Part shown: positions 10,462 through 55,507 of the stretch, piece by piece
Layout: every line of letters begins with the position of its first letter
How positions within the stretch are numbered: the first letter of the stretch is position 1
Source of the DNA: Sabellastarte sp. h YS-2021
Taxonomy: Eukaryota; Annelida; Polychaeta; Sabellida; Sabellidae
DNA: 64,000 nt
Reading direction: 5' to 3'
Assembly (NCBI GenBank): GCA_964017235.1
Contig: OZ024931.1
Location: forward strand, 96,180,221-96,244,220
The notes under the pieces: model-generated
What the model saw: only the letters and a program-made list of their open reading frames with translations
Told to the model about the DNA's origin: nothing
The model's database searches: none
Translations under genes and position numbers: made by a program

Positions 10462-10620
10462 CAAGCAATCAGTGGCCGTGAACGGGCTCTGTGTCACCTG
10501 ACTGTGTGTTTTGAGTTTCAGAGTAGAAGTGAAAGAAGGTCACAAAGGTTGTGCCCTGCAAATGGTATTTAAAAGTAAAGTTAGCTGTTAAGGTGTAAAA
10601 AGTAGGTGGAAAACATATTT
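10462..10620 (-). mobile_element. Head1 module: CAAG plus hairpin terminus
   Basis: The module begins CAAGCAATCAGTGGCCG and has an imperfect hairpin (AGTGGCC/GGGCTCT) followed by a conserved non-repeat stretch (CTGACTGTGTGTTTTGAG, then a TTGTGCCCTGCAAATGG segment). Related copies start at 21722, 27410 and 62460. In the latter ones the stem is better (AGTGCCC/GGGCACT). It leads into A or D repeats. Read on the minus strand, it is hairpin, 5-8 bp, CTTG. Confidence 0.75.
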
Positions 10621-11302
10621 CAACAAAATACTGTAAATGCAATAGTTTTCAAGTTACATGTGATTTAATCAACAGTCATAATCTCCAATTAGCTTTTGCT
10701 CAGCATTGTACTGAGCTACAGGTCTGCAATTATACTATGTTATAGCTGAGTGAAAAGTAGGTGAATCACAGATTTAAACCAAATACTGTAAATCAACTAG
10801 TTTTCAAGATACAACTAGCCTGAAACTTTACTATGTTATAGCTGTTCAAAAAGTAGCTAAATAACATATTTAAAGGAAATTTTGCAATAGTTTTCAAGTT
10901 ACAATTGATTGACTCAACATTGAAAACCTGAAAGTAGCTACTGCTCATGTATGCAATGAGCTGCAGGTCTGCATCTTTACTATATTATAGCTGACCCAAA
11001 ACAGGTGAACAACACATTTAAAAAATACTGTAAATGCAATAGTTTCAAGTTACAACTCATTTACTCAACTGTGACAACCTGAAAGTAGCTATTGCTCAAC
11101 TATGCTATGAGCTAAAGGTATACAATTTCATTATGTTATAACTGGCTGAAAAGTAGATGAATAACACATTTACACAAAATACTGTAGATGCAATAGTTTT
11201 CAAGTTACAACTGATTTACTCAACAGTGAGAACCTGGAAGTAGCTATTGTTTAGTTTTCCAATTAGCTACATGTCTGCAATTTTACTATGTTATGGCTGA
11301 CC

Positions 11303-11882
11303 CAAAAGTAGATAGAATAGAATAGAATAGAAACATTTATATAGCGCAAAATTGATGCAACATCCTCTAATGCGCTTGAAATCAAAAAGGGAAAGTCGAG
11401 GGACGTTCGAGGTCATGATCCAAGGTTAGCGCCCGCCAGGGAGATGTACTATGGTGGAGGATATGCTAATCTAAACAAGTAGGTCTTTAGCTGGCTACGG
11501 AAACCTGTTACTGTTTGTTGTGATCGTACTGATTGTGGGAGTCTGTTCCATTCTATGGGGGAAGCCACTACAAAACCTCTCCTACCGATGGCCTTTTTGT
11601 GAGAGGCTGAGGAAAGAGAAAGACGATTTCCACGTGTTAGACAACTGGTTTTGATCAAGGATGATAGGTATATGGGTTGAGAGAAATTTATAGCCTTGAA
11701 AGTAATTAGATTGTACTTAAACAATATACGGTAAGTGATAGGAAGCCAGTGTAGTTTTTGAAGAAAAGGAGTGACATGGCTAGTTCTATCAAGTCTAAAA
11801 ACAATTCTACAAAGGGCATTTTGTATCTTTTGGAGTTTAGCAACATTGTACTTACTGATGCCATAACTATTAATAACATATA
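11303..11882 (-). mobile_element. 5'-truncated CR1/L2-like LINE
   Basis: The minus strand encodes the C-terminal end of a non-LTR retrotransposon polyprotein, then a 3' UTR ending GCGCTATATAAAT and a short ATTCT microsatellite tail (11308-11335), as is typical for CR1/L2-type elements. The element is truncated at its 5' side, so only the last part is present, and it sits inside an A repeat unit. Confidence 0.85.
11449..11882 (-). pseudogene. C-terminal fragment of LINE reverse transcriptase ORF2
   Basis: Recognisable family motifs, in order, are KLQKIQNALCRIVF, LHWLPITYRILFK, FKAINFSQPIYLSSLI, FVVASPIEWNRLPQSVR and FRSQLKTYLF. They match the conserved region after the palm domain in CR1, L2 and related LINEs. 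The endonuclease and catalytic RT motifs are absent because of 5' truncation. The frame continues upstream into satellite sequence, which is not part of the element. Confidence 0.85.
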
Positions 11883-13369
11883 AGATTAATAACATATGTA
11901 AAGAAAATTCTTTAAATGCAATAGTTTTCAAGTTACAAGTGATTCACACAACAGTGATAACCGGTAAATAGCTATTGCTCAGCTATGCAAGGAGCTACCG
12001 GTCTGCAATTCCACTATGTTATAGCTGACTGAAAAGTACATGAATAACATATTTAAACAAAATACTTTAAATGCAATACTTTTCAAGTTACAACTGATTT
12101 ATTCAACATTGAGAACCTCAAAGTAGCTATTGCTCAGCTATGCTATGAGCTACAGGTCTGCAACTTTACTATGTTATAGTTGACCCAAAAGTAGATGAAT
12201 AACATATTTCAAGGAAATTCTCTAAATGCAATAGTTTTCAAGTTACAACCGATTTACTCAACAGTGAAAACCTGAAAATAGCTACTGCTCAGCTATGCAA
12301 TGAGCTACAGGTCTCCAGTTTTACTATGTTATAGCTGACCCAAAAGTACATTAATAACATATTTAAACAAATTACTCTAAATGCAATTGTTTTCTAGTTA
12401 CAACTTATCAGATTTACTCAACAGTGATAATCTCAAAGTAGTTATTGCTCAGCTATGCTGGGGGCTACAGGTATACAATTTCACTATGTTGTAGCCTACC
12501 CAAAAGTAAGTGAATAACATATTTAAAGAAACAAACTTCTCTAAATGCAACAGTTTTCGAGTTAAAACTGATTTCCTCAACAGTGAGAACCTGATAGTAG
12601 CTATTGCTCAGCTATGCAATGAGGTACAGGTCTGTAGTTTTGCTATGTTATAGCTGACCCAAAACTAGGTAAATAATATATTTAAACAAAATACTGTAAA
12701 TGCAATAGTTTTCAATATACAACTGATTTACTCAACAGTGAGGACCTCAAAGTAGCTATTCCTCAGCTATGCAATGAGCTACAGGTCTGCAATTTTTTTA
12801 TGTTATAGCTCACCCGAAAGTAGGTGAATAAAATATTTAAACAAAATACTCTAAATGCAATAGTTTTCCGGTTTAAAATGATTTACTCAACAGTAAGAAC
12901 CTCAAAGTAGCTATTACTCAGCTATGCTATGAGCTACAGTTCTGCAATTGCAGTATGTTAATGTGAATAACATATTTAAAGAAAATACTGTCAAAACAAT
13001 AGTTTTCAAGTTACAACTGATTTACTCAACAGTGATAACCTCAAAGTAGCTATTGCTCAGCTATGCAATGAGCTACTGCTCAGCAACTTTACTATGTTAT
13101 AGCTGACCCAAAAGTAGGTGAATGACATATTTAAACAAAATACTCTAAATGCAATAGTTTTCAAGTTACAACTGATTTACTCAACACTGAAAACCTCAAA
13201 GTAGCTATTACTCAGCTATGCAAGGAGCTACAGGTATGCAATTAGACCATTTTATAGCTGACCCAAAAGTAGTTTAACAAGACCACTGCCGTGGTATGAT
13301 CTCCCGCCGCACTACATCTGCAATACTTCTAGAGATAATTCGCATATACTCATTTTCAGTAGGCGAGTA

Positions 13370-15430
13370 ATTAGCTATGGGTCTGAAACTTCACTATGTG
13401 AAGGCCCTTGCAAAAGTAGGTGAATGAGTTATTTGAGAAAAAATTGGCTATCTGCAATACTTTTCAGAGATAATTCGCATTTACTCATTTTCAGTAGGTG
13501 AGTAATTAGCTATGGGTGTGAAACTTCACCAAGTGAAAGCTCTCCCAAAAGTAGGTGAATGAGTTATTTGAGAAAAATTGGCTATCTGCAATACTTTTAG
13601 CAATAATTTGCACTTACTCATTTTGAGTAGGTGAGTAATTAGCTATGAGTGTGAAACTTCACCAAGTGAAAGGTCTCCCAAAAGTCGGTGAATGAGTTAT
13701 TTGAGAAAAATTGGCTATCTGCAATACTTTTAGAGATAATTCGCATTTACTCATTTTCAGTAGGTGAGTAATTAGCTATGGGTGTGAAACTTCACCATGT
13801 GAAAGCTCTTCCAAAAGTAGATGAATGAGTTATTTGAGAAAAATTGGCTATCTGCAATACTTTTAGCGATAATTCGCATTTACTCATTTTCAGTAGGTGA
13901 GTAATTAGCTATGGGTCTGAAACTTCACCATGTGAAAGCTCTCCCAAAAGTAGGTGAATGAGTTATTTGAGAAAAATTGGCTAAGTACAATACTTTTAAG
14001 AGATAATTCGCATTTACTCATTTTGAGTAGGTGAGTAATTATCTACAGGTCTGAAACTTCACCATGTGAAAGCTCTCCCAAAAGTAGATGAATGAGTTAT
14101 TTGAGAAAAATTGGCTATCTGCAATACTTTTAGAGATAATTCGCATTTACTCATTTTGAGTAGGTGAGTAATTAGCTATGGGTGTGAAACTTCACCAAGT
14201 GAAAGCTCTCCCAAAAGTAGGTGAATGAGTTATTTGAGAAAAATTGGCTATCTGCAATACTTTTAGCGATAATTCGCATTTACTCATTTTCAGTAGGTGA
14301 GTAATTAGCTATGGGTCTGAAACTTCACCATGTGAAAGCTCTCCCAAAAGTAGGTGAATGAGTTATTTGAGAAAAATTGGCTAAGTACAATACTTTTAAG
14401 AGATAATTCGCATTTACTCATTTTGAGTAGGTGAGTAATTATCTACAGGTCTGAAACTTCACCATGTGAAAGCTCTCCCAAAAGTAGATGAATGAGTTAT
14501 TTGAGAAAAATTGGCTATCTGCAATACTTTTAGAGATAATTCGCATTTACTAATTTTGAGTAGGTGAGTAATTAGCTATGGGTCTGAAACTTCACCAAGT
14601 GAAAGCTCTCCCAAAAGTAGGTGAATGAGTTATTTGAGAAAAATTGGCTATCTGCAATACTTTTAGCGATAATTCGCATTTACTCATTTTCAGTAGGTGA
14701 GTAATTAGCTATGGGTCTGAAACTTCACCAAGTGAAAGCTCTCCCAAAAGTAGGTGAATGAGTTATTTGAGAAAAATTGGATATCTGCAATACTTTTAGC
14801 GATAATTCGCATTTACTCATTTTCAGTAGGTGAGTAATTAGCTATGGGTCTGAAACTTCACCATGTGAAAGCTCTCCCAAAAGTAGGTGAATGAGTTATT
14901 TGAGAAAAATTGGCTAAGTACAATACTTTTAAGAGATAATTCGCATTTACTCATTTTGAGTAGGTGAGTAATTATCTACGGGTCTGAAACTTCACCATGT
15001 GAAAGCTCTCCCAAAAGTAGATGAATGAGTTATTTGAGAAAAATTGGCTATCTGCAATACTTTTAGAGATAATTCCCATTTACTCATTTTGAGTAGGTGA
15101 GTAATTAGCTATGGGTCTGAAACTTCACCAAGTGAAAGCTCTCCCAAAAGTAGATGAATGAGTTATTTGAGAAAAATTGGCTATCTGCAATACTTTTAGC
15201 AATAATTCGCATTTACTCATTTTCAGTAGGTGAGTAATTAGCTATGGGTGTGAAACTTCACCAAGTGAAAGCTCTCCCAAAAAGTAGGTGAATGAGTTAT
15301 TTGAGAAAAATTGGCTATCTGCAATACTTTTAGAGATAATTCACATTTACTCATTTTCAGTAGGTGAGTAATTAGCTACGAGTCTGAAACTTCACCATGT
15401 GAAAGCTCTCCCAAAAGTAGATGAATGACT
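13370..15430 (+). repeat. B satellite array, 133-bp period
   Basis: Units contain GTAATTAGCTATGGGTCTG, AAACTTCACCAAGTGAAAGC, CTCCCAAAAGTAGGTGAATG and TTGGCTATCTGCAATAC. A variant with GGCTAAGTACAATAC recurs at about 13981, 14381 and 14921, spacings near 3 and 4 units, showing higher-order organisation. The units align along their whole length with A units, so A and B share ancestry. Confidence 0.9.
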
Positions 15431-16400
15431 TAAAAAGTAGATGAACAACTTATTTGAGAGAAATTGTGTAGCTGCAATACTTTTGAAGATATAGGGCATT
15501 TACTCATTATGGTTATCATTAAAAATTGACAAAGTACCTATTACGGTTTGCGAGATATTTGTCATTTTTCACATTTTCACCAAAAGTAGCAATAAAGTAG
15601 GCATTACTCACTTGTACATTGAGCAACAGTTGTGAAACTTAAATATGTTACAGTTCACAAAAAAGTAGATGAACAACTTATTTGAGAGAAATTGTGTAGC
15701 TGCAATACTTTTGAAGATATAAGCCATTTACTCATTATGGTTATCATTAAAAATTGACAAAGTAGCTATTACTCACTTAGCTATGGAGATACACTTCCAA
15801 ACTAGTGACCATGTTGTAGCTCTGGAGATAGTAGCTGAACAACATATTGGAACAAAATTGTGTAGCTGCAATACTTTTGAAGATATAAGCCATTTACTCA
15901 TTATGGTTATCATCAAAGTAGCTATTACTCAGTTAGCTATGGAGTTACAGCTGTGAAAATTCACAATACAGTATATCCAAAAGATAGGTGAACAACATAT
16001 TCGACAAAAATCCTCTATATTCAATAGTTTTTGAGTTATAAGTGACTTGCTGAATGGTCAAATGTTAAACTTAGTATAGCTATTACTCAGTTAGCTATGG
16101 TGCTACACCTTGGACACCTCACCATGATATAGTACATGAAGGAGTTGTTGAACAACATATTTCAGGCCAATATTGTAAGTAACAGTTACAAAGACAAAAT
16201 CAATTTACTCATTTTGCTCATTGTTAATAACAGAAAATAGCTATTACTCACTTAGCTATGAAGATAGAACCCTAAAAATGGTACCATCTTGTAGGCATGG
16301 AGAAAGTAGCTGAACAACGTATTTTACAGAAACACTCTAAATGCAGTCGTTTTGGAGTTATGAGCACTTTACTCAAAGTAGCCACCATTGCTATTACTCA
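15431..16400 (+). repeat. C satellite array (about 170-bp period)
   Basis: Landmarks are TGTAGCTGCAATACTTTTG, AAGATATAAGCCATTTACTC, TTATGGTTATCATTAAAAA and CTATGGAGATACACTTCC. Some units are strongly diverged toward the right. The same family lies at 54960-55440 and 61190-62100, in each case leading into a CA-rich microsatellite and the tail2 hairpin. Confidence 0.85.
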
Positions 16401-16529
16401 CTTAGCTATGGTCCTAGGTGTGAAATAACAGCATCAAATGAAAGGACATAAGCAATAAGGTCATAAAAAACATTGAAAAGGCCAAGGAGAAACAACCAGT
16501 GTGATGTACAGCCCTTTATAAAAGCGTGA

Positions 16530-16582
16530 CACACACTCAATAACACACGAACACACGCACACACGCACACACGCACAGAATG
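16530..16582 (+). repeat. CA-rich microsatellite inside tail2
   Basis: This tract of ACAC/CGCACACA type lies just before the tail2 hairpin. Equivalent tracts occur at 55438-55463 and 62226-62270, so the microsatellite travels with this terminus. Confidence 0.85.
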
Positions 16583-16618
16583 CATTTTATAATCTCCCGC
16601 CCGGCCGGCGGGAGATAA

Positions 16619-17919
16619 TAACTTATTTAAACAAAATACTGTAAATGAAATAGTTTTCAAGTTACAACTGATTAACTGAACAGTGAGAATCTAAAAGTAG
16701 CTATTGCTCAGCTATGCCATGAGCTACAGGTCTACAATTTCACTATGATTTAGCTGACCCATAAGTATGTGAGCAACATATTTAAACAGATTACTCTAAA
16801 TGCAATAGTTTCCAAGTTACATATGATTTACTCAACAGTGAGAAAACTTGAAAGTAGCTATTGCTCAGCTATGCCATGACATACAGGTCTGCAAATTCAC
16901 TATGTTAAAGCTGACCCAAAAGTAGGTGAACAACATTTTCATAAAAAATATTTAAAATGCAATATTTTTCAAGTTACACTGATTTACTCAACAGTGAGAA
17001 CCTTGGAATAGCTATTACACAGCTATGCCATGAGCTACAGGTCTACAATTTTACTATGTTATAGCTGACCCAAAAGTATCTGAATAACACATTTATACAA
17101 AATACTGTAAATGTAATAGTTTTCAAGTTACAACTGATTTGCTCAAGAGTGAGAAGCTCAAAATAGCTATTGCTCAGCTATGAAATAAGCTACAGGTCTG
17201 CAATTTTACAATGTCAGAGCTGATCCAAAAGTAGGTGAATAACATATTAAAACAAACTACTCTAACTGCTAAGTTATGAAGATACAACTGATTTACTCAA
17301 CACTGATAACATTAAAGTAGCTATTAATCAGCTATGGAAAGAGCTAAAGGTCTGCAATATTACTATGTTATAGCTGACCCAAAAGTATCTGAATAACATA
17401 TTAATACAAAATACTGTTAACGTAATAGTTTTCAAGTTACAACTGATTTACTCAAGAGTGAGAAGCTCAAAATAGCTATTGCTCAGCTATGAAATAAGCT
17501 ACAGGTCTGCAATTTTACTATGTTATAGCTGATCCAAAAGTAGGTGAATAAGATATTAAAACAAAATACTCTAAATACAATAGTTTTCAAGTTATAAGTG
17601 ATTTACTCAACAGTGATAACCTAAAAGTAGCTATTACTCAGCTATGCCATGAGCTACAGGTCTGAAATTTTACCATGTTATAGCTGACCCAAAAGTAGCT
17701 GAATAACATATTTATACAAAATTTTCTAAATGCAATAGTTTTCAAGTTACAAGTGATTTTACTCATGATGGAAGTTACTTAAAAGTCCAAAAGTAGCTAT
17801 TACTCACTTAGCTATTGAGATAGACACCCAAGTTACTCACCATGTTGTAGCTATGAAAAAAGTAGCTGAATAACATATTTTAACAAAATGCTCTAAATGC
17901 AATACTTTTCAAGTTATAA
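16619..17919 (+). repeat. A satellite array
   Basis: This continues the A array interrupted at 13277; the first bases, TAACTTATTTAAAC, complete the split unit. About eight units follow, the last with the ATAGACACCCAAGTTACTC variant that also precedes other tail1 modules. Confidence 0.9.
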
Positions 17920-18328
17920 GTGATTTAGTACATGATTTCATGAATTTTAATGCATTAAAAATTATTTTAAAAATTCATAAAAAAATAATTCAGAAAGATC
18001 CAGGTCTGACACTCACACAAGGGAATCTACTTGTGGCCTAGTACATATGTGCAAGATATGAGAGAAATCCCTGCAATAGTCACTGAGAAAATTGTGATAA
18101 AGTGTTGAAATTTTCATACTTAGGGTGGGGGGTACCTCACTTATAATGGCTCTAGCAAACAGACGAACAAACAGATTTGCATACCTTGAACAATTTTTTC
18201 ATGCTAGATAGATAAGCTATCTTTTAAAAAACCAGCATGTCTCTGGGCCTTGTAGTTTCGTCGGAGAAGTCCCTCACGTCGCAGAGTGACGACATAATGT
18301 CAGCCGACTGAGAAGTCAGCTGACATAA
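17920..18328 (+). mobile_element. Tail1 module ending a head1 element
   Basis: This is the same module as at 2777-3220, more diverged and with the GC-rich hexamer run nearly lost (only CCCTCACGTCGCAGAG remains). It ends with AAGTCAGCTGACATAA at 18328. With the head1 at 10462 it could delimit one element of about 7.9 kb that carries the LINE and element 2. Confidence 0.75.
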
Positions 18329-19400
18329 AAACTCTAAATGCAATAGTTTTCACTTTACAACTGATTTACTCAACAGCGATAACCTCAAACCAGCTATTGC
18401 TCAGCTATGCAATAATGTTACAGGTGTTCAATTTTACTATGTTATAGAGGACTGACAATTATGCGAATAACAAATTTAAAGAAATTACTGTAAATGCAAT
18501 AGTTTTAAAGTTACAACTGATTTACTCATCAGGGAGAACCTCAAAGTAGCTATTGTTCAGCTATGATATTACAGGTCTGCAATTTCACTATATTATAGAG
18601 GACTAAAAAGTAGGCAAATAACATTACAGAAATTACTGTAAATGCAATAGTTTGAAAGTTACAAATGATTTACTCAACAGTGAGATCCGCATAATAGCTA
18701 TTGCTCAACTATGCCATGAGCTATATGTCTGCAATTTTACTATGTTACAGATAACCCAAAAGTAGATAAATAACATATTTAAATAAATTTTCTAAATGCA
18801 ATAGTTTTCAAGTTAAAAGTAATTTACTCAACAGTGAGAACCTCAAAGTATTAGCTACATATCTGGAATTTCACTATGTTATAGCTGACCCCAAAATAGG
18901 TGAATAACATATTCAAACAAAATACCCTAAACATAATTGGTTGCAACTTACATGTGATTTACTCAACAGTGATAACCTAAAAGTAGCTATTACTCAGCTA
19001 TGCTATGAGCTACTGGTCTGCAATTTTACTATGTTATAGCTGACCCAAAAGTAGCTAAATAACATATTTATACAAATTTCTCTATATGCAATAGTTTTCA
19101 AGTTACAAGTGATTTTACTCATTATAGAAGTTACTGAAAAGTCAGAAAGTAGCTATTACTTATTTAGATATGGGGATAGATGTCCAGGTTACTCACCATG
19201 TTGCACCTATGAAAGAAGTAGCTGAATAAGATATTTTATCACAATGCTCAAAATGCCATACATTTCAAATCATGGAATGTACTGAAAAATCAGACTAACT
19301 ATTACTCACTTAGCTATAGAGATAGACTCCCAAGTTACTCATCATGTTGTAGTTATAGAAAAAGTAGCTGAATAACACATTTTTACAAAATGCTCTAAAT
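18329..19400 (+). repeat. A satellite array, interrupted by a DIRS copy
   Basis: About seven A units, partly diverged and with some shortened, end at CTCTAAAT. The unit resumes with GCAATACTTTTC at 27087, after the DIRS insertion. Confidence 0.85.
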
Positions 19401-21451
19401 TTGAAAATTTTAATTACTTAAATGTAGCTTTTATAAGCTACAAGCTTACCATATGGGACTGAATGCTGTTCTCGGATGGCCCCAAGGCATCAGGCCAACG
19501 TCTAAGTAAAATAGACATTTATAGTTGGCCGTAGCCTCAAGTTGTCGTCTCGTGGTACACTTGTGAGAACTCGTCCTACATTCTCGTTGAAATTTTTAAA
19601 CCTTACCCCTCAGCTGTAATACAACAGGGAGGCAGGGTGGGACTCTTCTCAGTCCCACATGGTAAGCTTGTAGCTTATAAAAGCTACATTTAAGTAATTA
19701 AAATTTTCAATTTTATTGCGCTACAATAGCTTACCATGTGGGGCTGAATGCTGAATCCAACCGCCCGGTGGCGGGATAACAGCTGAGACTGGAAGATATG
19801 TCAATTTTTCTTAGATTTTGAAGTAATTAGAATGAATGTTAGAAATACCAGTCTGAGTCCCGTAACAGTGCCCCAATCCCGAAGACCGGGCCTGTGATGA
19901 GCCACCTGAATAGAATGAATGACAGTGCTAAAACTGTCAAGATGTTTTGATTGTAGGAGAGAAGTGCAGCCGTGCTCACTTTAAGAAGTGTAAGGGCCCT
20001 TAGGGTCCACGAGTGAAAACCAGCCCAATGGTTGGAATTCTCATAAATTTTTGCCACTGAATATGAGATTAATGACAACCTTGATAAGTCCTTAATACAT
20101 ATATACCTGATAAACTAAAAATGACCTTACCCATAACATCTTGAAAGGTAAACCTATACCTAGACCCTGGGATTAGACTCCTGAAGACTTGGTTGCAGCG
20201 GATGTGTCCCCCCCCCCCCCCCTTCTTTTCTTTCCGAGGATAACTGGTCTGAGGGGAAGGGTCTAGGACTTGTTGTGCCGCCACCACTGGTCCCAGATAC
20301 ATATTGTTGTCATTGTCTGACCAAGTAAGGTCTTTTAGGTAAAAATTTGTAAATGTGTTGTGAGCTTTCCAGTGACAGGCTTGCATGATTTGGTCCACCG
20401 ATACCCTACCGTAACAGGCCTTAGAGGCCGCGAAGGCCCTAATGTCATGCGCTTTAACTTGGACCAAGTCTAAGGCTTGTTGGTCTGCTTGTTTATAACA
20501 AAGTAGAATGGTTTGTTTCAACCAGGAAGAGAGAGTAGCAGGTCTGATGTCTGAGGTGTGTCCTTTCTTGAAGGATATGAAAAGGAGGGATCGAGACCCT
20601 ATCAGGTCTTTGGTTCGATCCAAATAGTACCTCAGGGCCCACACCGGACACAAGGTCCTGTCTTCTTTGAATTGTCTATCTACGTCTGTAAAGAGTTGTG
20701 GTCTTTGGGATGAAGGTCTGCACCTCTCATCATGTTTGAGGGATCTTGCCACCATTCTAGGAGAGCTGAAATGGTGTCTGACCAAGGAAGAATAGTTTCC
20801 AATGACTGAGGACATCTCCAGTGCTCCTTGAGGTGAAACTGAAAGGGCCTCATGTGAAGGCATCCCTCCGACCCTTTCTATTGCATTCAATGACAGAAGA
20901 GACTAGACACAAGCGGCCAGAGCTCGGTCTTTTTAAAGGGTCTTGTATCCTGAGTGAATCTGGCTAGTTTTGGTCTTGAGATGAATGGTAGAATGTAACC
21001 ATTGGTAATAATGTTTAACACGTCGTTTGAACATTTGTTTGTTTGGCAGTCTCTTCTGAAAGAACGGAGGCAACCTCCTACTGGTGGACTGAGGGAGGCT
21101 TTTAAGGAGTCATTGGGGGGAGGGGTTTCCACGCCCTCTTCCCCTTGACTGGGGTTGAAAACGAAGTTAAGAGCCTCTGTTGTTCAATTTTCCCCTAACT
21201 GAGAAAAATGATTGGTTACTGCTTTGAGAAGAGTGGCCCCTATAGGGGCACTTTCTGTAGGAGCCTCTTTTCTTATTGTGGTGGGGACCACGAATGGGCT
21301 TATTTTGATATGGTCCAAAATCCTGTGATTCTTTAGGGATGCCTTTTTTAAGGAGGAACTCTTCTCCATCCTTAACCAACTGAGACTTGAACAAAGGAGT
21401 AGGCCAAAATGGCGAATTTGCAAATTTAATAAGTAAATTAAATTTTTATAA

Positions 21452-21715: not shown

Positions 21716-21999
21716 TTATAACAAGAGGAGAGTGCCCGTGAATGGGCACTGTGTCAGCTGACTGAATGTTTTTGATTTGTGATGGTGATAATGAGAGGAA
21801 AGCATAATTATCAGGGAAAGGGCTGTACAGAAATACAGTAAATGGTAACTGAACAGCATGTTCGAAAGATATTCCGAAGCTGACAGAAAAAAAGGACAAA
21901 AAAGTTGTGCCATGCAAATGGTATTATGAAATAAAGTAACAAGGTTAAGTGTAAAAAGTAGGTTAAAAATATTTAAAGAAATACTATAAATGCAATATC

Positions 22000-23310
22000 T
22001 TCGTTCGACCATGAAGAAGGGGTCCAAAGGTCAAATCTGACCATACCAAAAGATTCCCAGCCAAAGAATTTAGGATGGTTTACCATCCCAAACCTCTCGG
22101 ACCAATAATAAGTGAGTCATAGGCACTTTTTAAGTTTGGCTATCCTTGTTTGACCTTGACGGAGGGGTCCAAGGTCAAATCCGACCACACAAAAAAATTC
22201 CCAGCCCATGATTTCCTGTAGCTTGTTTACCATCCCAAACCTGTAGGACCAATAATAAGCGAGTTCTAAGCAATTGTAAGTTTGGCTATCCTCAATTGAC
22301 CTTGAAGGAGGGGTCCCAGGTCAAATCTGACCACACCAAAAGAATCCCAGCCCATGATTTCCTATATGTTGGTTTACCATCCCAAACCTCCAAGACCAAT
22401 AACATGCGAGTTATAAGCACTTTAAGTTTGGCTATCTTCGTTTGACCTGGAAGGAGGGGTCCAAGGTCAAATCCGACCACACCAAAAAATTCCCAGCCCA
22501 TGATTTTCTATAGGTTGGTTTTCCATTCCAAACCTCTAGGACCAATAATAAGCAAGTTATAAGCACTTTTAAGTTTGGCTATCCTCATTTGACCTTGAAG
22601 GAGGGGTCCAAGGTCAAATCCGACCACACCAAAAAATTCCCAGCTCATGATTTTCTATAGGTTGGTTTTCATTCCAAACCTCTAGGACCAATAATAAGCG
22701 AGTTATAAGCACTTTTATGTTTGGCTATCCTCATTTGACCTTGAAGGAGGGTTCCAAGGTCAAATCGGACCATATTAACAGATTCCCAGCCCATGATTTC
22801 CTACAGGTTGGATACAATGATTTACTCAACAGTGAGAACCTGAAAGAAGCTATTGCTCAGCTATGCCATGACACAGAGGTCTGCAATTTCACTATGTTAT
22901 AGCTGCCCAAAACGTCTGTGAAAAACATATTTAACAAAATACTCTAAATGTAATAGTTTCAAGTTACTACTGATTTACTCAAGAGTGAGAACCTCACGGG
23001 CTGGGAATGATTTTCTATAGGTTGGTTTTCCATTCCAAACCTCTAGGACCAATAATAAGTGAGTTATAAGCACTTTTAAGTTTGGCTATCCTCATTTGAC
23101 CTTGAAGGAGGGGTCCATGGTGAAATCCGACCACACCAAAAAATTCTCAGCTCATGATTTTCTATAGGTTGGTTTTCATTCCAACCTCTGGGACCAATAA
23201 TAAGCAAGTTATAAGCACTTTTATGTTTGGCTATCCTCATTTGACCTTGAAGGAGGGTTCCAAGGTCAAATCGGACCATATTAACAGATTCCCAGCCCAT
23301 GATTTCCTAC
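22000..23310 (+). repeat. D array with a duplicated D/A junction block
   Basis: The 147-bp D units run to about 22810, then A sequence begins at ATACAATGATTTACTCAAC. A block of about 500 bp covering the D/A junction is repeated: 22717-22990 and 23220-23500 are almost identical, including the rare D variant with GGACCATATTAACAG. The short frames at 22717 and 23154 are products of this duplication. Confidence 0.8.
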
Positions 23311-26300: not shown

Positions 26301-26431
26301 CAAAAGTAGCTATTACTCACTTAGCTATTGAGACAGGCACCCAACTTACTCACCATATTGTAGCTATGAAAAAAGTAGCTGAATAACATATTTTAACAAA
26401 ATGCTCTAGATGCAACAGTTTTCAAGTTATA
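23310..26431 (+). repeat. Long homogeneous A array
   Basis: About 20 units of about 158 bp show high mutual identity and a higher-order pattern: variants with CAATAGTGATGACC, CAATAGTGAGAACC and CAACAGTGATAACC recur in ordered blocks. The last unit before the tail has the GAGACAGGCACCC variant, as in the other copies. The high similarity suggests recent expansion. Confidence 0.9.
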
Positions 26432-32602: not shown

Positions 32603-32626
32603 AAGCGTCCCTTGCGGGACGCTTAA

Positions 32627-38293: not shown

Positions 38294-38396
38294 AGTCCCA
38301 CATGGTAAGCTTGTAGCTTATAAAAGCTACATTTAAGTAATTAAAATTTTCAATTTTATTACGCTACAATAGCTTACCATGTGGGACTTAATGCTG
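38294..38396. repeat. Internal complementary region of DIRS copy 1
   Basis: Positions 38294-38353 are the reverse complement of the left terminus (38044-38103), and 38354-38396 of the right terminus (44383-44425). This juxtaposition of both ends is the template used by DIRS1-type elements to join their ends in a circular intermediate. Confidence 0.9.
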
Positions 38397-44034: not shown

Positions 44035-44425
44035 TTTGTACGCAATAAAAGACGTAGAAAGAAATAGCCTGAACCGAGGAAAACTCAAAACACGCGACTG
44101 CAATAAAAATACTTATCCTGTGGAAATGAAACTTTAACAGAATAATCTATGATATATATTACAAGAAATATGCAAATATTAGCCTCCAACAATAAGTAAA
44201 GACTGAGAAATAAATGAAAATGTCTGTATATTTACAAACTGCTACCAGTCAATCGTGGCCAACGAGAAAGTAGGACGATTGGTCAGAAGGTATCACGTGA
44301 CGACAACTACCAGTATATCCGGTGGCTAACAAGAACGGTCTTTTTTTCTAAGACGTTGGCCCCGGGTGTGGCAACCCGAGAACAGCATTAAGTCCCACAT
44401 GGTAAGCTATTGTAGCGTAATAAAA

Positions 44426-44876
44426 GCAACACTTTTGAAGTTATAAGTGATTTAGTGCATGATTTCATGAATTTTAATGCATTAAAAATTATTAAAAAAA
44501 TTTATTAAAAAAAAGGTAAGACAGATCCAGGTCTCATACTCACACAAGAGAATCTACCTCTAGACTAGTACATATATGCAACATATGAGAGAAATCCCTG
44601 CAATAGTCACTGAGAAAATTGTGATAAAAAGTTGAAATTTTCACTTTTGGTGGGGGTACCCCCCTTGTAATGTCTCTAGCAAACAGACGAACAGACAGAT
44701 TTGCATGCCTTGAATAATTTTTCATCCTCGATAGATAAGGTATCTTTTAAAAAAAACAGCATGTCTCTAGGCCTTGTAGTTTTTGAGAAGAAGTTGTTCA
44801 CGCGGACGCGGATGCGGACGCCCACGCCGCAGAGTGATGACATAATGTCAGCTGACTGACAAGTCAGCTGACATAA
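44426..44876 (+). mobile_element. Tail1 module after DIRS copy 1
   Basis: The rest of the interrupted A unit (44426-44446) is followed by a complete tail1 with short hexamer run (44799-44825) and perfect terminal hairpin. It is nearly identical to 2755-3220. Confidence 0.85.
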
Positions 44877-45075
44877 AAACAGCATGTCTCTGGGTGTTGT
44901 AGTCTTGGAGGAGAAGTTGTTCATGCAGACGAGGACATGTACCCCAACGCCGCAGAGTTATGACATAAAAACAGCATGTCTCTGGGCCTTGTACTTGGTG
45001 GAAAAGTTTTTCACATGGATGCGGATGCCACAAAGCGATGCCATAATATCAGTTGACTGACAAGTCAGCTGACAA
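44877..45075 (+). mobile_element. Two further partial tail1 ends in tandem
   Basis: AAACAGCATGTCTCTGGG begins at about 44877 and again at about 44969. Each copy runs through the GC-rich and GCCGCAGAG part; the first ends ATGACATAA, the second has the hairpin TCAGTTGACT/AGTCAGCTGAC. The first is plausibly the displaced remainder of the tail1 cut at 27409. Confidence 0.6.
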
Positions 45076-45649
45076 AAACTCCTTTTAGGTTTCTTATTAT
45101 TGTTCCTAGAGGTTCAGAATGTGAAAACAGTCCAAAGGAAGTCATGGCCTGCAATCATTTTGCTGTGAAAAATTTTGGTCTTATTTTTGAAAGACAAAAT
45201 AGCCAAATTTGCCGATTCTTTGAACTCATAAGATGCTCTAAATCTTGAAATATTGCAAATATTTCAACCAAAGATATGTGGCTAGGAAAGCTAGCATGAT
45301 AGTAATTTTAGCCTTATATCTCCATTATTATTGGTTCTACACCTTTGACATTTGAAAACAACCTACTCAAAATCTTGCCCTATGAATCTTTAGCAAGTGT
45401 AAAATATGATCTTTGACCCTTGCTTCAAAGTCAAGTGCAAGGTCAACAAGCTAAAGGCCAAATTTGGGATATTTCTTGACATTTTGGCCTAGTACTAAGA
45501 TACAGAAGGACATATCATCCTATGGCTAATATAGATAATACAAATAAATGTCCCTTGTATCCATAGTCTTGCTTTGTGGTGTTCCACTAGAAGACCAATG
45601 GAAGCCTTCTAAATGTCAAATTCAAGGCATTTCTTCTGGCACAAATAAA
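45076..45649. other. Unassigned sequence
   Basis: No repeat family seen elsewhere is recognised here, and no exon. It probably belongs to the interior of the inverted F element that ends at 46265. Confidence 0.4.
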
Positions 45650-46265
45650 AAATGTTGATTTTCTCAAAAACCGTTAGGGATACAGCAATTTTGGAAAATT
45701 ATGGACCCTCTGGGTTCTGTAGACCTTGGAAATTATGCCTTTGAAATATTTTAATTTTCTGAATTCTGACTGTCATCTTGAAGTTTGCCAGAAATGGAAA
45801 ATGTTGATTATCTCGTAAACTGTTAGAGATACAGCAATTTTGCTCAAATTTTGGCTTCCAGATACTGTTGACGATGGATATAATGCCTCTGAAAAATTTT
45901 TTAATTTTCAGAATTTTAACCGTCATCCTGAATTTTGCCGGAAATGGAAAATGTTGATTATCTTGAAAACTGTTACAGATAGAGTTATTTCAAGCAGATT
46001 TCGGACCCTTTGGGTACTATAAACCCAGATATAATACCTCTGAAAGATTTTGTTATTTTCTGAATTCCAGCGGCCATCTTGAATTTTGATGGAAATGGAA
46101 AATTTCGACAATCTCAAAAACCATTACAAATACAGCGATTTTGATCAAAATGTTTGACCCTGGGTCATGTATTTAAAAGGCCTTTTGAACACCTTTTTGT
46201 TGTTAAACTTTCACCATTTCTACTTAATACACGGTTGGGGGATAAACACCATGGCAGTGGTCTTG
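45650..46265 (+). mobile_element. Inverted F-type repeats ending in head2 (CTTG)
   Basis: Units of about 150 bp (GGAAAATGTTGATTATCTCG near 45795 and 45944, related at 46098) are diverged F repeats in reverse orientation. They end in the reverse complement of head2: hairpin ACCATGGCAGTGGT (46248-46261) and CTTG (46262-46265). This element therefore points opposite to the others in the window. Its far end was not found. Confidence 0.55.
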
Positions 46266-46713: not shown

Positions 46714-46721
46714 TTATTTAC

Positions 46722-47154: not shown

Positions 47155-47219
47155 CTAGGCCTATGCATCGGAGAACCGATGCAAATTTGTATCCACCGAA
47201 AAGACAACTCACCAAAGCC

Positions 47220-48512: not shown

Positions 48513-48889
48513 CTAGAGGATCGCTCGCAAAAAAAAAAGATAATGTTTTTGCATAGCAAAAACAAAGCGTCCCGAAAAGGATATAAAGGTGAGTGCTAAA
48601 GTATTAAGAAAATGCTTCGTTTCTAGCCTTATACTGTTGTGGCAACCGGCAGAGATACCCAGCAGGTCAAAAATTTTGTTGAGTTCGCTCCATATAGCAC
48701 GGTTTTCGAGATATAAGCATTTTTGTGTTTTGCAAAAACTTTGAAAATTCAAAATGGCCACCATTTTTGGGGAGACAAAAATTTTTGTCAAGACCACTGC
48801 CGCGGTGTGTATCTCCTGCCGAGCATTAAAGCAGAAGAAATAGCTTTTCCGAGATATTCACAATTTTTCATTTTCCTGTGTGAAAGCTC

Positions 48890-51800
48890 TTCCAAAAGTA
48901 GGTGAATGAGTTATTTGAGAAAAATTGGCTATCTGCAATACTATTAAGAGATAATTCATATTTACTCATTTTGAGTAGGTGAATAATTATCTATGGGTCT
49001 GAAACTTCACCAAGTGAAAGCTCTCCCAAAAGTAGGTGAATGAGTTATTTGAGAAAAATTGGCTATCTGCAATACTTTCAGAGATAATTCGCATTTACTC
49101 ATTTTGAGTAGGTGAGTAATTAGCTATGGGTCTGAAACTTCACCATGTGAAAGCTCTCCCACAAGTAGATGAATGAGTATTTGATAAAAATTGGGTATCC
49201 GCAATACTTTTACAGATAATTAGCATTTACTCATTTTGAGTAGGTGAATAATTAGCTATGGGTCTGAAACTTCACCAAGTGAAAGCTCTCCCAAAAGTAG
49301 GTGAATGAGTTATTTGAGAAAAATTGGCTATCTGCAATACTTTTAGAGATAATTCGCATTTACTCATTTTGAGTAGGTGAGTAATTAGCTATGGGTCTGA
49401 AACTTCACCAAGTGAAAGCTCTCCCAAAAGTAGGTGAATGAGTTATTTGAGAAAAATTGGCTATCTGCAATACTTTTAGAGATAATTTGCATTTACTCAT
49501 TTTGAGTAGGTGAGTAATTAGCTAGTTGTCTGAAACTTCACCAAGTGAAAGCTCTCCCAAAAGTAGGTGAATGAGTTATTTGAGAAAAATTGGCTATCTG
49601 CAATACTTTTAGAGATAATTCGCATTTACTCATTTTGAGTAGGTGAGTAATTAGCTATGGGTCTGAAACTTCACCAAGTGAAAGCTCTGCCAAAAGTAGG
49701 TGAATGAGTTATTTGAGAAAAATTGGCTATCTGCAATACTTTTAGAGATAATTCGCATTTACTCATTTTGAGTAGGTGAGTAATTAGCTATGGGTCTGAA
49801 ACTTCACAGAGTGAAAGCTCTCCCAAAAGTAGGTGAATGAGTTATTTGAGAAAAATTGGCTATCTGCAATACTTTTACAGATAAATCACATTTACTCATT
49901 TTGAGTAGGTGAGTAATTAGCTATGGGTCGGAAACTTCACCAAGTGAAAGCTCTCCCAAAAGTAGGTGAATGATTAATTTGACAAAAATTGGCTATCTGC
50001 AATACTTTTAGAGATAATTCGCATTTACTCATTTTGAGTAGGTGAGTAATTAGCTATGGGTCTGAAACTTCACCAAGTGAAAGCTCTCCCAAAAGTAGGT
50101 GAATGAGTTATTTGAGAAAAATTGGCTATCTGCAATACTTTTAGAGATAATTCGCATTTACTCATTTTGAGTAGGTGAGTAATTAGCTATGGGTCTGAAA
50201 CTTCACCAAGTGAAAGCTCTCCCAAAAGTAGCTGAATGAGTTATTTGAGAAAAATTGGCTATCTGCAATACTTTTAGAGATAATTCGCATTTACTCATTT
50301 TGAGTAGGTGAGTAATTAGCTATGGGTCTGAAACTTCACAGAGTGAAAGCTCTCCCAAAAGTAGGTGAATGAGTTATTTGAGAAAAATTGGCTATCTGCA
50401 ATACTTTTAGAGATAATTCGCATTTACTCATTTTGAGTAGGTGAGTAATTAGCTATGGGTCTGAAACTTCACCAAGTGAAAGCTCTCCCAAAAGTAGGTG
50501 AATGAGTTATTTGAGAAAAATTGGCTATCTGCAATACTTTTAGAGATAATTCGCATTTACTCATTTTAAGTAGGTGAGTAATTAGCTATGGGTCTGAAAC
50601 TTCACCATGTGAAAGCTCTGCCAAAAGTAGGTGAATGAGTTATTTGAGAAAAATTGGCTATCTGCAATACTTTTAGAGATAATTCGCATTTACTCATTTT
50701 GAGTAGGTGAGTAATTAGCTATGGGTCTGAAACTTCACCAAGTGAAAGCTCTCCCAAAAGTAGCTGAATGAGTTATTTGAGAAAAATTGGCTATCTGCAA
50801 TACTTTTAGAGATAATTCGCATTTACTCATTTTGAGTAGGTGAGTAATTAGCTATGGGTCTGAAACTTCACAGAGTGAAAGCTCTCCCAAAAGTAGGTGA
50901 ATGAGTTATTTGAGAAAAATTGGCTATCTGCAATACTTTTAGAGATAATTCGCATTTACTCATTTTAAGTAGGTGAGTAATTAGCTATGGGTCTGAAACT
51001 TCACCATGTGAAAGCTCTGCCAAAAGTAGGTGAAGGAGTTATTTGAGAAAAATTGGCTATCTGCAATACTTTTAGAGATACTTCGCATTTACTCATTTTG
51101 AGTAGGTGAGTAATTAGCTATGGGTCTGAAACTTCACCAAGTGAAAGCTCTCCCAAAAGTAGGTGAATGATTAATTTGACAAAAATTGGCTATCTGCAAT
51201 ACTTTTAGAGATAATTCGCATTTACTCATTTTGAGTAGGTGAGTAATTAGCTATGGGTCTGAAACTTCACCAAGTGAAAGCTCTCCCAAAAGTAGGTGAA
51301 TGAGTTATTTGAGAAAAATTGGCTATCTGCAATACTTTTAGAGATAATTCGCATTTACTCATTTTGAGTAGGTGAGTAATTAGCTATGGGTCTGAAACTT
51401 CACCAAGTGAAAGCTCTCCCAAAAGTAGGTGAATGAGTTATTTGAGAAAAATTGGCTATCTGCAATACTTTTAGAGATAATTCGCATTTACTCATTTTGA
51501 GTAGGTGAGTAATTAGCTATGGGTCTGAAACTTCACAGAGTGAAAGCTCTCCCAAAAGTAGGTGAATGAGTTATTTGAGAAAAATTGGCTATCTGCAATA
51601 CTTTTAGAGATAATTCGCATTTACTCATTTTGAGTAGGTGAGTAATTAGCTATGGGTCTGAAACTTCACCAAGTGAAAGCTCTCCCAAAAGTAGGTGAAT
51701 GAGTTATTTGAGAAAAATTGGCTATCTGCAATACTTTTAGAGATAATTCGTATTTACTCATTTTAAGTAGGTGAGTAATTAGCTATGGGTCTGAAACTTC

Positions 51801-52610
51801 ACCATGTGAAAGCTCTGCCAAAAGTAGGTGAAGGAGTTATTTGAGAAAAATTGGCTATCTGCAATACTTTTAGAGATACTTCGCATTTACTCATTTTGAG
51901 TAGGTGAGTAATTAGCTATGGGTCTGAAACTTCACCAAGTGAAAGCTCTCCCAGAAGTAGGTGAATGATTAATTTGACAAAAATTGGCTATCTGCAATAC
52001 TTTTAGAGATAATTCGCATTTACTCATTTTGAGTAGGTGAATAATTAGCTATGGGTCTGAAACTTCACCAACTGAAAGCTCTCCCAAAAGTAGGTGAATG
52101 AGTTATTTGAGAAAAATTGGCTATCTGCAATACTTTTAGAGATAATTCGCATTTACTCATTTTGAGTAGGTGAGTAATTAGCTATGGGTCTGAAACTTCA
52201 CCAAGTGAAAGCTCTCCCAAAAGTAGGTGAATGAGTTATTTGAGAAAAATTGGCTATCTGCAATACTTTTAAGAGATAATTCGCATTTACTCATTTTGAG
52301 TAGGTGAGTAATCATCTACGGGTCTGAAACTTCACCATGTGAAAACTCTCCCAAAAGTAGGTGAATGAGTTATTTGATAAAAATTGGGTATCCGCAATAG
52401 TTTTTGAGATAATTAGCATTTACTCATTTTGAGTAGGTGAGTAATTAGCTACGGGTCTGAAACTTCACCAAGTGAAAGCTCTTCCAAAAGTAGGTGAATG
52501 AGTTATTTGAGAAAAATTGGCCATCTGCAATACTTTTAGAGGTAATTCGCATTTACTCTTTTTGAGTAGGTGAGCAATTAGCTATGGGTCTGAAACTTCA
52601 CCAAGTGAAA
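48890..52610 (+). repeat. B satellite array, 133-bp period, about 28 units
   Basis: This long homogeneous array has ordered variants: AAACTTCACAGAGTGAAAGC near 49800, 50335, 50870 and 51530; GAAGGAGTTATTTGAG near 51030 and 51830. Block duplications of several units are evident. The first four and last few units match those of copy 1 almost exactly, while the middle differs in number. Confidence 0.9.
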
Positions 52611-53065
52611 GCTCTTTGGGATAGCTGCTCTGCAGAGATACCCTGAAGATAAAAAATTTCGTCGAAATCGCTCTATGTAGCACGGTTTTCGAAATACTAG
52701 CATTTTTGTGTTTTGCAATTTTTGCGCAAAAATTCGAAAATTCAAAATGGCCGCCATTTTTGGCGAGACAAAAATTTTTTGAAAATTGGGAAAATTACTC
52801 CGCAGAGATATCCTGCGGGTCAAAAATTTTGTCGAAATTGCTCTATCTAGCACGGTTTTTGAGATATAAGCATTTTTGTGTTTTTCAATTTTTGCGAAAA
52901 TTTCGAAAATTCAAAATGGCCGCCATTTTGGGCGAGACAAAATTTTTTTGAAAATTGGGAAAACTACTCCGCAGAGATACCCTGTGGGTCAAAAATTTCG
53001 TCGAAATCGCTCTATCTAGCACGGTTTTCGAGATATAAGCATTTTTGTGTTTTCCTTATTTGGAA
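52611..53065 (+). repeat. Short E' array in element 5 copy 2
   Basis: Roughly two and a half E' units correspond to the first and last units of the copy 1 array (30950-32230), with the central units absent. Frames on both strands are repeat-driven. Confidence 0.85.
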
Positions 53066-53439
53066 AATTCGTAATGATTAATTAATCATTAATTACTCGG
53101 CCATTTCTTGACCAATCAATGCCAAAATCTAATGATTTCCAGATTTTAATAGAATGAATGTATTTGCCAAGTTTCAGGTGAATTGATAAAATTCCTTTCA
53201 AGTTATCATCCGGACAAGCTTCCCCATCGAAAAAAGACATTTTTGGTCATGTGACCTCTCTGATTGGTTGAAATGTCACTGCAGCATATTCAAAAAAATT
53301 CCCCAAGGCTACTGCCTAAACCTGCCAAATTTGAAAAGAATCCGCCTAACGGTTACAGAGTTATAAGGAAAACAAAATGCGGAGCCGGCAGAGCCGGCGG
53401 AGCCGGCGGAGCCTGAAGCTCTCCCATACACAAACAAGC

Positions 53440-54020
53440 GACCACATCAAAAGATTCCCAGCCCATGATTTCCAAAAGGTTGGTTTACCATCCCAAACGT
53501 GTACGACCAATAATAAGCAAGTTATAAGCAATTTTAAGTTTGGTTATCCTCGTTTGACCTTGAAGGAGGGGTCCAAGGTCAAATCTGACCACACCAAAAG
53601 ATTCCCAGCCCATGTGTTCCTATAGGTTGGTTTACCATCCCAAACTTCTAGGACCAATAATAAGCCAGTTATAAGCACTTTTAAGTTTCGCTATCCTCAT
53701 TTGACCTTGACAGAGGGGTTATAAATCTGACTACACCAGAAGATTCCCTGCCCATGATTTCCTATAAGTTGGTTTACCATCCCAAACCTGTACGTGAGTT
53801 AAAAGAACTTTTAAGTTTGACTATCCTCATTTGACCTTGAAGGAGGGGTCCAAGGTGAAATCAGACCACATCAAAAGATTCCCAGCCCATGATTTCCTAT
53901 AGGTTGGTTTACCATCCCAAACCTGTACGACCAATAATAAGCGAGTTATAAGCACTTTTATGTTTGGCTATCCTCGTTTGACCTTGAAGGAGAGGTCCAA
54001 GGTCAAATCTGACCACACCA
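53440..54020 (+). repeat. D units resuming after element 5 copy 2
   Basis: About four D units, one shortened (near 53720), end in the D/F junction CAAAAGATTCGCTC at about 54027. Confidence 0.85.
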
Positions 54021-54960
54021 AAAGATTCGCTCAAAATTGCTCTATCTCTTACGGTTTTCATGATATTCATACCTTTTCCGCTAAAATCCAAGATGGCCGC
54101 CCAAAGTGGCGAAAATTGAAATTTTTACCCTAGGGACAGGTTACTCCTAAACTAAACTGTGGGGTCAAAAATTTCCTCAAAATCGCTCTAACTGTTTTCG
54201 AGATATTTTCAATGGTTTTTTTTTTTTCACTAAAATCCAAGATGACCGCCAAAAGTGCCGAAAACTGAATTTTTTCCCCTAGGAACAGGATATTCTTGTA
54301 CTGCCCTGTGGGTCAAAAATTCGCTCGAAATCGCTCTATCTCTAACCATTTCCAAAATATTTTCAATGTTTTATTTTCCGCTAAAATCCAAGATGGCCGC
54401 CAAAAGTGGCGAAAATTGAGATTTTTCTCCTAGGAACAGGATACTCCTGTACTACACTGCGATTCAAAAATTCGCTCCAAATCGTTCTCTTACCGTTTCC
54501 ATGATATTTTCAACATTTTACTTCCCGCCAAAATCCAAGATGGCCGCCAAAAGTGGCAAAAATTGAAAGTTTTCCTCTTTGCATAGGATACTCTTGTACT
54601 ACCCTGTGGGTCAAAATTCGCTCGAAATCACTCTATCTCTTACCGTTTACGAGATATTTTCAATGTTTTATTTTCCGCTAAAATCCAAGATGGCCACCAA
54701 AAGTGGCGAAAATTGAAATTTTTCCCCTACTCACAGGATACTCCTGTACTACCCTGCGGGTCCAAAATTCGCTCGAAATCACTCTATCTCTTATGGTTTT
54801 CAGGATATTCACACTTTTTCATTTTCCGCTAAAATCCAAGATGGCCGCCAAAAGTGGCGAAAATTGAAATTTTTCCCCTCTGTATACAACGCTCTTGTAC
54901 TACCCTGTGGGTCAAAAATTTGCTCGAAATCACTCTATCTCTTACGGTTTGCGAGACATT
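54021..54960 (+). repeat. F satellite array (about 150 bp, six units)
   Basis: ATCCAAGATGGCCGCC recurs at 147-151 bp (54093, 54242 diverged, 54393, 54540 and onward). Other landmarks are CTGTGGGTCAAAAATTCGC and CGCTCTATCTCTTACGG. F shares the ATGGCCGCC and GGGTCAAAAATT...CGAAATCGCTCTATCT parts with E and E'. Confidence 0.9.
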
Positions 54961-55437
54961 TGTGATTTTTTCACATTTTCACTAAAATTAGCAATAAAGT
55001 AGCCATTACTTACTTGTACATTGAGCAACAGGTGTGAAACTTAAATATGTCACAGTTCACAAAAAAGTAGATGAACAACATATTTGAGAGAAATTGTGTA
55101 GCTGCAATACTTTTGAAGATATAAGCCATTTACTCATTATGGTTACCACTAAAAATTGACAAAGTAGCGGCAATCACTTAGCTATGGAGATACACTTCCA
55201 AACTACTGACCATGTTGTAGCTGTGGATAAAGTACCTGAACAACATATTGGAACAAAATATTCTAAATGTAATAGTTTGAGAGTTATAAGTCATATAATT
55301 AGGTAAAAGTGCCATTACTCACTCAAAAGTAGGCCAAAGTTCACCAAACCCAAAAAATACTGAAGAGCGTAAAATTTCATTAGGATAAATAATTTACCAA
55401 AAATGTGCAACTGTAGTAGTTTAAGAGAAACTGCTTG
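54961..55437 (+). repeat. C repeats leading to tail2
   Basis: About two and a half C units (GTAGCTGCAATACTTTTG, TACACTTCCAAACTACTG) are followed by a short unique stretch and the CA-rich tract at 55438-55463. The arrangement is the same as at 61190-62290. Confidence 0.85.
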
Positions 55438-55507
55438 ACACACACACGCACGCACACACACATGGTGCAAATTATAATCTCCCGCCGGCGAGCTGGGCGG
55501 GAGATAA

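Follow-up and report, generated by a model that had tools for sequence, protein, structure and literature searches.

A 64,000-nucleotide stretch of the genome of the sabellid annelid Sabellastarte sp. h YS-2021 (assembly GCA_964017235.1, contig OZ024931.1, positions 96,180,221 to 96,244,220; hereafter the window) holds satellite-filled elements with hairpins at both ends, and the question that it raises is whether these form a separate group of Helitron-like transposons or belong to a kind already known. A preliminary description had suggested that they may define a separate group, having read the elements on the plus strand and compared them with canonical Helitrons only. The functional strand is most likely the minus strand, on which the order is TT, a palindromic 5′ subTIR, a microsatellite, satellite arrays, an inverted copy of the subTIR, a hairpin, CTAG or CTTG, and TT. 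The plan of Helentrons (HINEs) is known from mites, flies and oysters. Because the minus-strand reading fits this published plan, we regard the elements as new families of a known kind: they are non-coding, satellite-filled transposons, very probably HINEs, that is, non-autonomous Helentron-type rolling-circle transposons, nearly all of which lie on the minus strand in the window.

The window contains 15 left ends (heads) and 11 right ends (tails) in plus-strand order, which make up four matched families (H1 to H4) and one represented by heads only (H5). The terminal types that had been described, five among heads and four among tails, were all found at or near their reported places; for the H5 heads (GCATCGG) no matching tail was found within the window. 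Left ends read CAAG or CTAG, apart from one relic TTAG (plus strand); on the minus strand the 3′ terminal letters are thus CTAG in H3, H4a and H5, CTTG in H1 and H2, and CTAA in the H4 relic. AA precedes 13 of the 15 left ends, corresponding to TT after the 3′ end on the minus strand, and the two left ends that do not have it (28215 and 48789) are one internal junction common to both H3 copies. Right ends had been said to carry a second perfect hairpin followed by TAA. A palindrome followed by AA is present in nine of 11, with one to three mismatches in some H1 ends, and the remaining two, near 53437 and 62290, are cut within the palindrome. On the minus strand, TT stands before the palindrome in all nine non-truncated 5′ ends, and none begins with TC. 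The base before the 5′ end is A in all four non-truncated ends outside H1, whereas H1 5′ ends sit in runs of five Ts. A mismatch-tolerant end scan missed the head of H2a and the cut tail of H3b; both were identified from the sequence otherwise.

Each tail motif recurs, inverted, within its own head, a recurrence that the preliminary description overlooked. The longest exact inverted matches between the two ends of one element were 12 nt in H1b, H1c and H4a, 11 nt in H2a and 10 nt in H3a, lengths reached in 0 (H1b, H2a and H4a), one (H1c) and two (H3a) of 2,000 shuffles, and matches between families were only 4–7 nt long. H1a, whose subTIR is degenerate, gave a 6-nt match that was equalled by 633 of 2,000 shuffles. 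The 5′ and 3′ ends are therefore paired above chance in five of six pairs, with H1a as the exception, and in these five the subTIR lies 2–3 nt from the 5′ end and 21–51 nt from the 3′ end (21–30 nt in H1, H2 and H4). We used this targeted own-pair test instead of a general scan for head-palindrome pairs, which returned seven heads, against none in 19 of 20 shuffles and one in the other; those at 13278 and 27803 alone were element pairs, the other five being satellite palindromes, one place in a retroelement region and self-overlaps, and H1b, H1c and H4a were missed.

All six paired elements have a 5′ end that folds as one hairpin, with a bulge in H4a. A hairpin scan and the subTIR test placed the palindromic 5′ subTIRs, all on the minus strand, at 16592–16616 in H2a (ATCTCCCGCC), 32603–32624 in H3a (AAGCGTCCC), 35962–35990 in H4a (ATATCCCC) and 44845–44874 in H1c (TGTCAGCTGACT). 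The 3′ palindrome is clear in H1b, H1c, H5a and H5b; that of H2a is short, that of H4a has a bulge and that of H1a is degenerate. It had been placed within about 10 bp of CTAG or CAAG, which does not hold for H3, where the hairpin lies about 31–52 nt inside the CTAG end; it is 9 bp long in H3b, and in H3a the loss of a single base interrupts it, so that the best stem is 6 bp and fold computation preferred another pairing. The Helitron2 feature of asymmetric inverted repeats plus a hairpin at each end is present, with H1a and H3a as exceptions. The regular 5′ hairpin that had been called unusual does exist, and is the palindromic subTIR of the Helentron/HINE layout. As it has a copy just inside the 3′ hairpin, which is the layout already described, we rejected a new group defined by this hairpin.

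The elements do not stand side by side but form a nest: H2a lies in H1a, H1c contains a DIRS-like retroelement as well as H3a and H4a, and H3b lies in an array behind an H5 head. Coordinates below refer to the minus strand unless indicated. H1a (10462–18328; end scan) is an old element with a CAAG..AGTGGCCG head and a TGTCAGC-palindrome tail, and hosts H2a and a probable non-LTR fragment; its end pairing is uncertain owing to its degenerate subTIR, the want of an empty site and the presence of satellite on the right flank only. H1b (21722–26870; arrays and subTIR test) carries a 147-bp and then a 155-bp array, and H1c (27410–44876; subTIR test and joined flanks) sits in the A-run of another H1 tail. 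The end scan added H1d (62460–64000), the 3′ part of an H1 element that runs out of the window, and the 5′ palindrome of an H1 element (3188–3219), the head of which was not found within the window. H2a (13278–16618; arrays, subTIR test and empty site) contains 133-bp and approximately 166-bp-like repeats, with (ACACACGC)n beside the 5′ palindrome. A probable H2 element (57870–62290; end scan), whose ends we infer to be a pair, joins the H2d head to 151-bp and 166-bp arrays and a tail with half of its palindrome. A relic H2-type 3′ end, CTTG then TT, lies in the opposite orientation (46233–46265, plus strand; end scan), and the array of a further H2-type 5′ end (55477–55507; arrays and end reading) is fused at about 54028 to a 147-bp array, making a chimera.

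H3a (27803–32626; subTIR test and joined flanks) has 133-bp and 169-bp arrays. The second copy, H3b (48513–53437; end reading and alignment to H3a), has a 5′ end cut within the palindrome, and outside the arrays the two agree at 747 of the 749 bases aligned (99.7%); as they are near-identical, H3 looks to have been active recently. H4a (32768–35991; subTIR test and joined flanks) has a 350-bp array, and the end scan found a relic H4-type 3′ end (9462–9498) with TTAG instead of CTAG (plus strand). The same scan found two H5 3′ ends and no 5′ partner for either: H5a (6173–6216), with CTAG and the GCATCGG hairpin, and H5b (47155–47197), which continues into the 147-bp array containing H3b. Satellite arrays are found inside all six paired elements. 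H1, H2 and H3 each have one or more copies in which a microsatellite adjoins the inner side of the 5′ palindrome, and H4 has a short (GGC)n; a core of microsatellite and tandem repeats occurs in many, though not all, of the HINEs described.

Joining the flanks of H2a gave uninterrupted satellite monomers: of the 80 alignments that spanned the junction, 78 were gap-free to a distance of 10 nt from it. The joined flanks of H3a and H4a, both inserted in 147-bp arrays, were gap-free to the same extent in 38 of 40 each; these counts are of alignments and not of independent sites, since the matched monomers recur within the same arrays. The joined flanks of H1c had bases missing relative to all four aligned sites, an ambiguity of A/T run length, and the joined-flank search gave no spanning empty site for H1a, H1b or the presumed H2 element at 57870–62290. 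The three exact empty sites that had been described are thereby borne out, although their split between A and T is not unique: because TT (minus strand) stands on both sides, the same letters would result from T|T, from A|T or from duplication of 2 nt. Beyond this TT ambiguity there is no duplication at the three sites, and insertion between A and T fits H2, H3 and H4, with H1 in T-runs instead. The earlier view of Helitron-like, satellite-filled elements with no clear target duplication is supported.

A Pfam scan of all 19 open reading frames of at least 110 aa in the window found no Rep/helicase. The lone helicase-related name, BDHCT (5759–6121), was a 17-residue match under its cut-off. A PCAF_N match just above its cut-off (E = 1.6e-5) fell in a repeat frame of the 169-bp array and was taken for chance. 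Searches of viral contigs gave no match for any of three satellite patterns and two stretches for the T2 end palindrome, and in 207 bases of one of these the palindrome alone resembled the window; the T1 end palindrome had no match in a genome contig collection. By analogy with Helitrons and Helentrons, a Rep/helicase, perhaps with an endonuclease, would be made elsewhere in the genome and recognize the subTIRs. It may nick the T-rich 5′ end and peel off one strand as far as the 3′ hairpin and CTAG or CTTG, and the freed strand, presumably as a circular intermediate, would be joined into a TT or ATT site with no target duplication. The arrays would be cargo that may expand, contract and swap between element families.

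Several observations sit less easily with HINEs. A precedes the four non-truncated 5′ ends outside H1, as expected under A|T targeting; the 3′ subTIR of H1, H2 and H4 is nearer the end than the 38–60 nt of mites; the H1a subTIR is degenerate, the H3a 3′ hairpin is broken and H5 has no 5′ partner; and none of the 19 open reading frames is a Rep/helicase with these ends. It is possible, though unlikely, that the elements are one lineage with termini of the proto-Helentron type (TT...CTAG/CTTG, inserted after A) and subTIRs that are fully palindromic, as in Helentrons. Its mover would be either a single Rep/helicase able to recognize four or more different subTIR sequences or a number of such enzymes, and the lineage would represent a living intermediate linking the ends of Helitrons with those of Helentrons. 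We consider it improbable that they are Helitron2-like or proto-Helentron-like elements whose mover has no endonuclease, even though Helitron2 combines an asymmetric TIR with a hairpin at each terminus (PMC5148889) and H3a and H4a can be read like proto-Helentron-Pi, with 5′ TT, 3′ CTAG and A|T insertion (PMC4067079); the order of arrays and microsatellite is that described for oyster HINEs (PMC7492417), and the main difference from HINEs would be the protein. About equally improbable are canonical Helitrons (Helitron1), a class of Rep/helicase elements that run from TC to CTRR and show A|T insertion, here bearing an extra 5′ hairpin. The CTAG ends of H3, H4 and H5 have the CTRR form, A and T flank the ends as above (T after 13 of 15 3′ ends), and the lepidopteran Hel-2, which has AT flanks and TC...CTRR ends, carries a microsatellite in addition to subterminal inverted repeats and an inverted repeat at the 5′ end, so that subTIRs alone do not prove a Helentron (PMC4344730); but 5′ TC is replaced by TT throughout, H1 and H2 end in CTTG, and H1 lies in T-runs. 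Foldback or MITE-like cut-and-paste elements, which would account for palindromes at both ends, inverted repeats and a 2-nt TT duplication, are scarcely credible given that the repeats are asymmetric (2–3 nt from one end, 21–51 nt from the other) and that the clean empty sites show no duplication beyond TT.

With HINEs as the preferred reading, the window is a readable case of Helentron-type elements that carry and nest satellite DNA, in four end families of which several have related monomers, and it supplies new cases that bear on whether the true target is TT or A|T, and on the hunt for autonomous partners. The CTTG ends are a minor variation; we found no mention of them in the running text compared from Helentron/HINE papers, as distinct from the terminal-sequence figures and tables. 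That text already describes the Helentron/HINE plan (PMC4067079, PMC7492417) and hairpins at both ends of Helitron2 (PMC5148889), so that a separate group is not supported.

Among the systems compared, the likeness to mite and oyster HINEs is one of layout by description and not of family sequence. Fusarium oxysporum Helitron2 (FoHeli) shares asymmetric inverted repeats and, in some subgroups, hairpins at both ends, but has TCAG...ATTTT or TGCCT...CTCCTGT termini and another insertion preference (PMC5148889). Lepidopteran Hel-2 also shares the 3′ hairpin, but has a 250-bp consensus (PMC4344730). Proto-Helentron-Pi of Phytophthora infestans is, unlike the elements here, coding and approximately 14 kb long, and the passages compared liken its ends to those of typical Helitrons and name no palindromic subTIR or satellite arrays (PMC4067079). 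Closer are HINE-Mo and Helentron-Mo of the mite Metaseiulus occidentalis (Thomas et al. 2014, PMC4067079), with palindromic subTIRs 2–4 nt from the 5′ end, a palindrome near the 3′ end, no duplication, and a T-rich target with two or more Ts at each end, the distribution of which is described as unclear; some of the mite copies also contain tandem repeats or microsatellites. The mite subTIRs are 12–15 bp long, compared with exact matches of 10–12 nt here, and lie 38–60 nt from the 3′ end, compared with 21–51 nt, and an autonomous partner is known in the mite. Cg_HINE of the oyster Crassostrea gigas (Vojvoda Zeljko et al. 2020, PMC7492417), to which no autonomous partner could be linked, has a 5′ subTIR with a complementary inverted repeat, a microsatellite, a single satellite-like array or two in succession, with their orientation fixed, a 3′ subTIR and a palindrome, prefers TT without duplication and includes related arrays with different ends; the elements in the window differ from it in being nested in each other's arrays.

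Motif searches and reading of the window's 64,000 bases, from which alone this anatomy is drawn, located 15 left ends, of which 14 lie on the plus strand and one is oppositely oriented. Together with 11 right ends, they fall into five end families: H1 (four left ends, or heads, and five right ends, or tails), H2 (five heads, three tails), H3 (two of each), H4 (two heads, one tail) and H5 (two heads, no tail in the window). A tandem-repeat search found long arrays; most have periods of 131-170 bp, and a single one has a period of 350 bp. The preliminary description had delimited satellite-filled elements by CTAG or CAAG with a hairpin and by a hairpin with TAA, and the 15 left ends, 11 right ends and long arrays largely uphold both these bounds and the filling. 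The hairpin does not lie beside CTAG in H3, where it sits 31-52 nt inside (9 bp in copy H3b, broken in copy H3a). Heads and tails could be matched into six pairs: H1a (10462-18328), H1b (21722-26870), H1c (27410-44876), H2a (13278-16618), H3a (27803-32626) and H4a (32768-35991). The H1a pairing is doubtful because satellite occurs on its right flank only. On the minus strand, the likely functional one, tails are 5' ends and heads 3' ends. Two of the 11 5' ends (near 53437 and 62290) are broken off within the 5' palindrome, as if palindromes were deletion-prone or 5' ends were sometimes lost during transposition. At 44752-45078 the H1 5' tail unit, palindrome included, recurs in part as a tandem repeat.

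An inverted copy of the 5' palindrome sequence, a subterminal inverted repeat (subTIR), lies 21-51 nt from the minus-strand 3' end. The inverted match is exact over 12 nt in H1b, H1c and H4a (equalled in 0, 1 and 0 of 2,000 shuffles), 11 nt in H2a (0 of 2,000) and 10 nt in H3a (2 of 2,000); ends of different families share just 4-7 nt, and H1a has 6 nt (633 of 2,000). This 5'-3' pairing, absent from the preliminary description, is the feature that points to Helentrons and their non-autonomous relatives, HINEs.

Where three elements sit in arrays, their joined flanks aligned with uninterrupted monomers, and the alignments were gap-free for 10 nt around the junction in 78 of 80 (H2a), 38 of 40 (H3a) and 38 of 40 (H4a) cases, counts that represent repeated monomers, not independent sites. 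H1c gave four aligned sites, each with bases missing in an A/T run, and neither H1a nor H1b had a spanning empty site in the window. Exact empty sites had been claimed, split between A and T without duplication; they are clean for H2a, H3a and H4a, but T|T or a 2-nt duplication fits equally. On the minus strand, TT precedes the palindrome at all nine non-truncated 5' ends and directly follows 13 of the 15 3' ends, so that the letters are compatible with insertion at T|T or at A|T and also with a 2-nt duplication, an ambiguity also met in the available text of Thomas et al. 2014 (PMC4067079). The A preceding TT in all four non-truncated non-H1 5' ends counts toward A|T, and the five Ts at all five H1 5' ends toward T-runs. 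Proto-Helentron-Pi, as described there, has 5' TT, 3' CTAG and A|T insertion, so this combination is already in print.

The elements are nested: H2a within H1a; H3a, H4a and a DIRS-like retroelement within H1c; and H3b in an array of 147-bp monomers that follows an H5 head. Related monomers in the same orientation (155, 133 and 166 bp; 169 and 151 bp) occur in elements with unrelated ends. At about 54028, the 147-bp array directly joins a 151-bp array ending in an H2 5' end, and the block is now bounded by an H5 3' end and that H2 5' end. Both H3 copies contain the same internal H2-type 3' end (28215 and 48789), preceded by GT, not AA, which may record a past end capture or fusion; H3 was therefore probably chimeric before its copies spread. 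Outside arrays the copies are 99.7% identical (365/366 and 382/383 aligned bases, in alignments with 138 and 31 gap columns), which suggests recent movement.

The DIRS-like retroelement (38039-44434) has reverse transcriptase (E 1.6e-20), inverted terminal repeats and a weak, below-cut-off Pfam match to phage integrase. It and a partial copy (19396-21412) occupy the same position in two H1-type arrays, in each case in the final 155-bp monomer, with identities of 88.0% at the start and 78.5% in the middle, and 77.9% in the satellite flanks, reflecting either same-site insertion or shared descent. A 164-aa minus-strand frame in H1a (11449-11943) had no Pfam match; we take it to resemble the terminal part of pol from a non-LTR retrotransposon.

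A Pfam scan found no Rep/helicase among the window's 19 ORFs of at least 110 aa, a scan that split genes would escape. Two hits were taken as chance: a 17-residue BDHCT match, below the cut-off, and one to PCAF_N that falls in a repeat frame. From the likeness to Helentrons, transposition would best be read as rolling circle with Rep/helicase supplied in trans; strand polarity and any circular form are inferred, as is this protein.

In the parts of the literature available, the palindromic subTIRs of mite HINEs lie 2-4 nt from the 5' end and are accompanied by a 3' palindrome; their targets are T-rich, carry two or more Ts at each end and are left unmodified (PMC4067079). Lepidopteran Hel-2, in the account available, has TC...CTRR ends and AT flanks but also carries inverted repeats, one at its 5' end and others in subterminal position (PMC4344730); subTIRs therefore favour Helentrons, short of proof. 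Other oyster papers, as far as their accessible text goes, likewise report satellite arrays within Helitron/Helentron elements (PMC8268682, PMC11136912). Judged on sequence, the window elements are very probably new families of HINE type, ordinary in kind and useful in detail. The separate Helitron-like group that had been proposed is unsupported, as ends, subTIRs and arrays follow the HINE order in the published portions at hand (PMC4067079, PMC7492417). Oyster Cg_HINEs, in the sections available of Vojvoda Zeljko et al. 2020 (PMC7492417), run from subTIR through complementary inverted repeat, microsatellite and one or two satellite-like arrays to a 3' subTIR and palindrome, with a TT preference, and the window elements have their parts in that same order, including the microsatellite.
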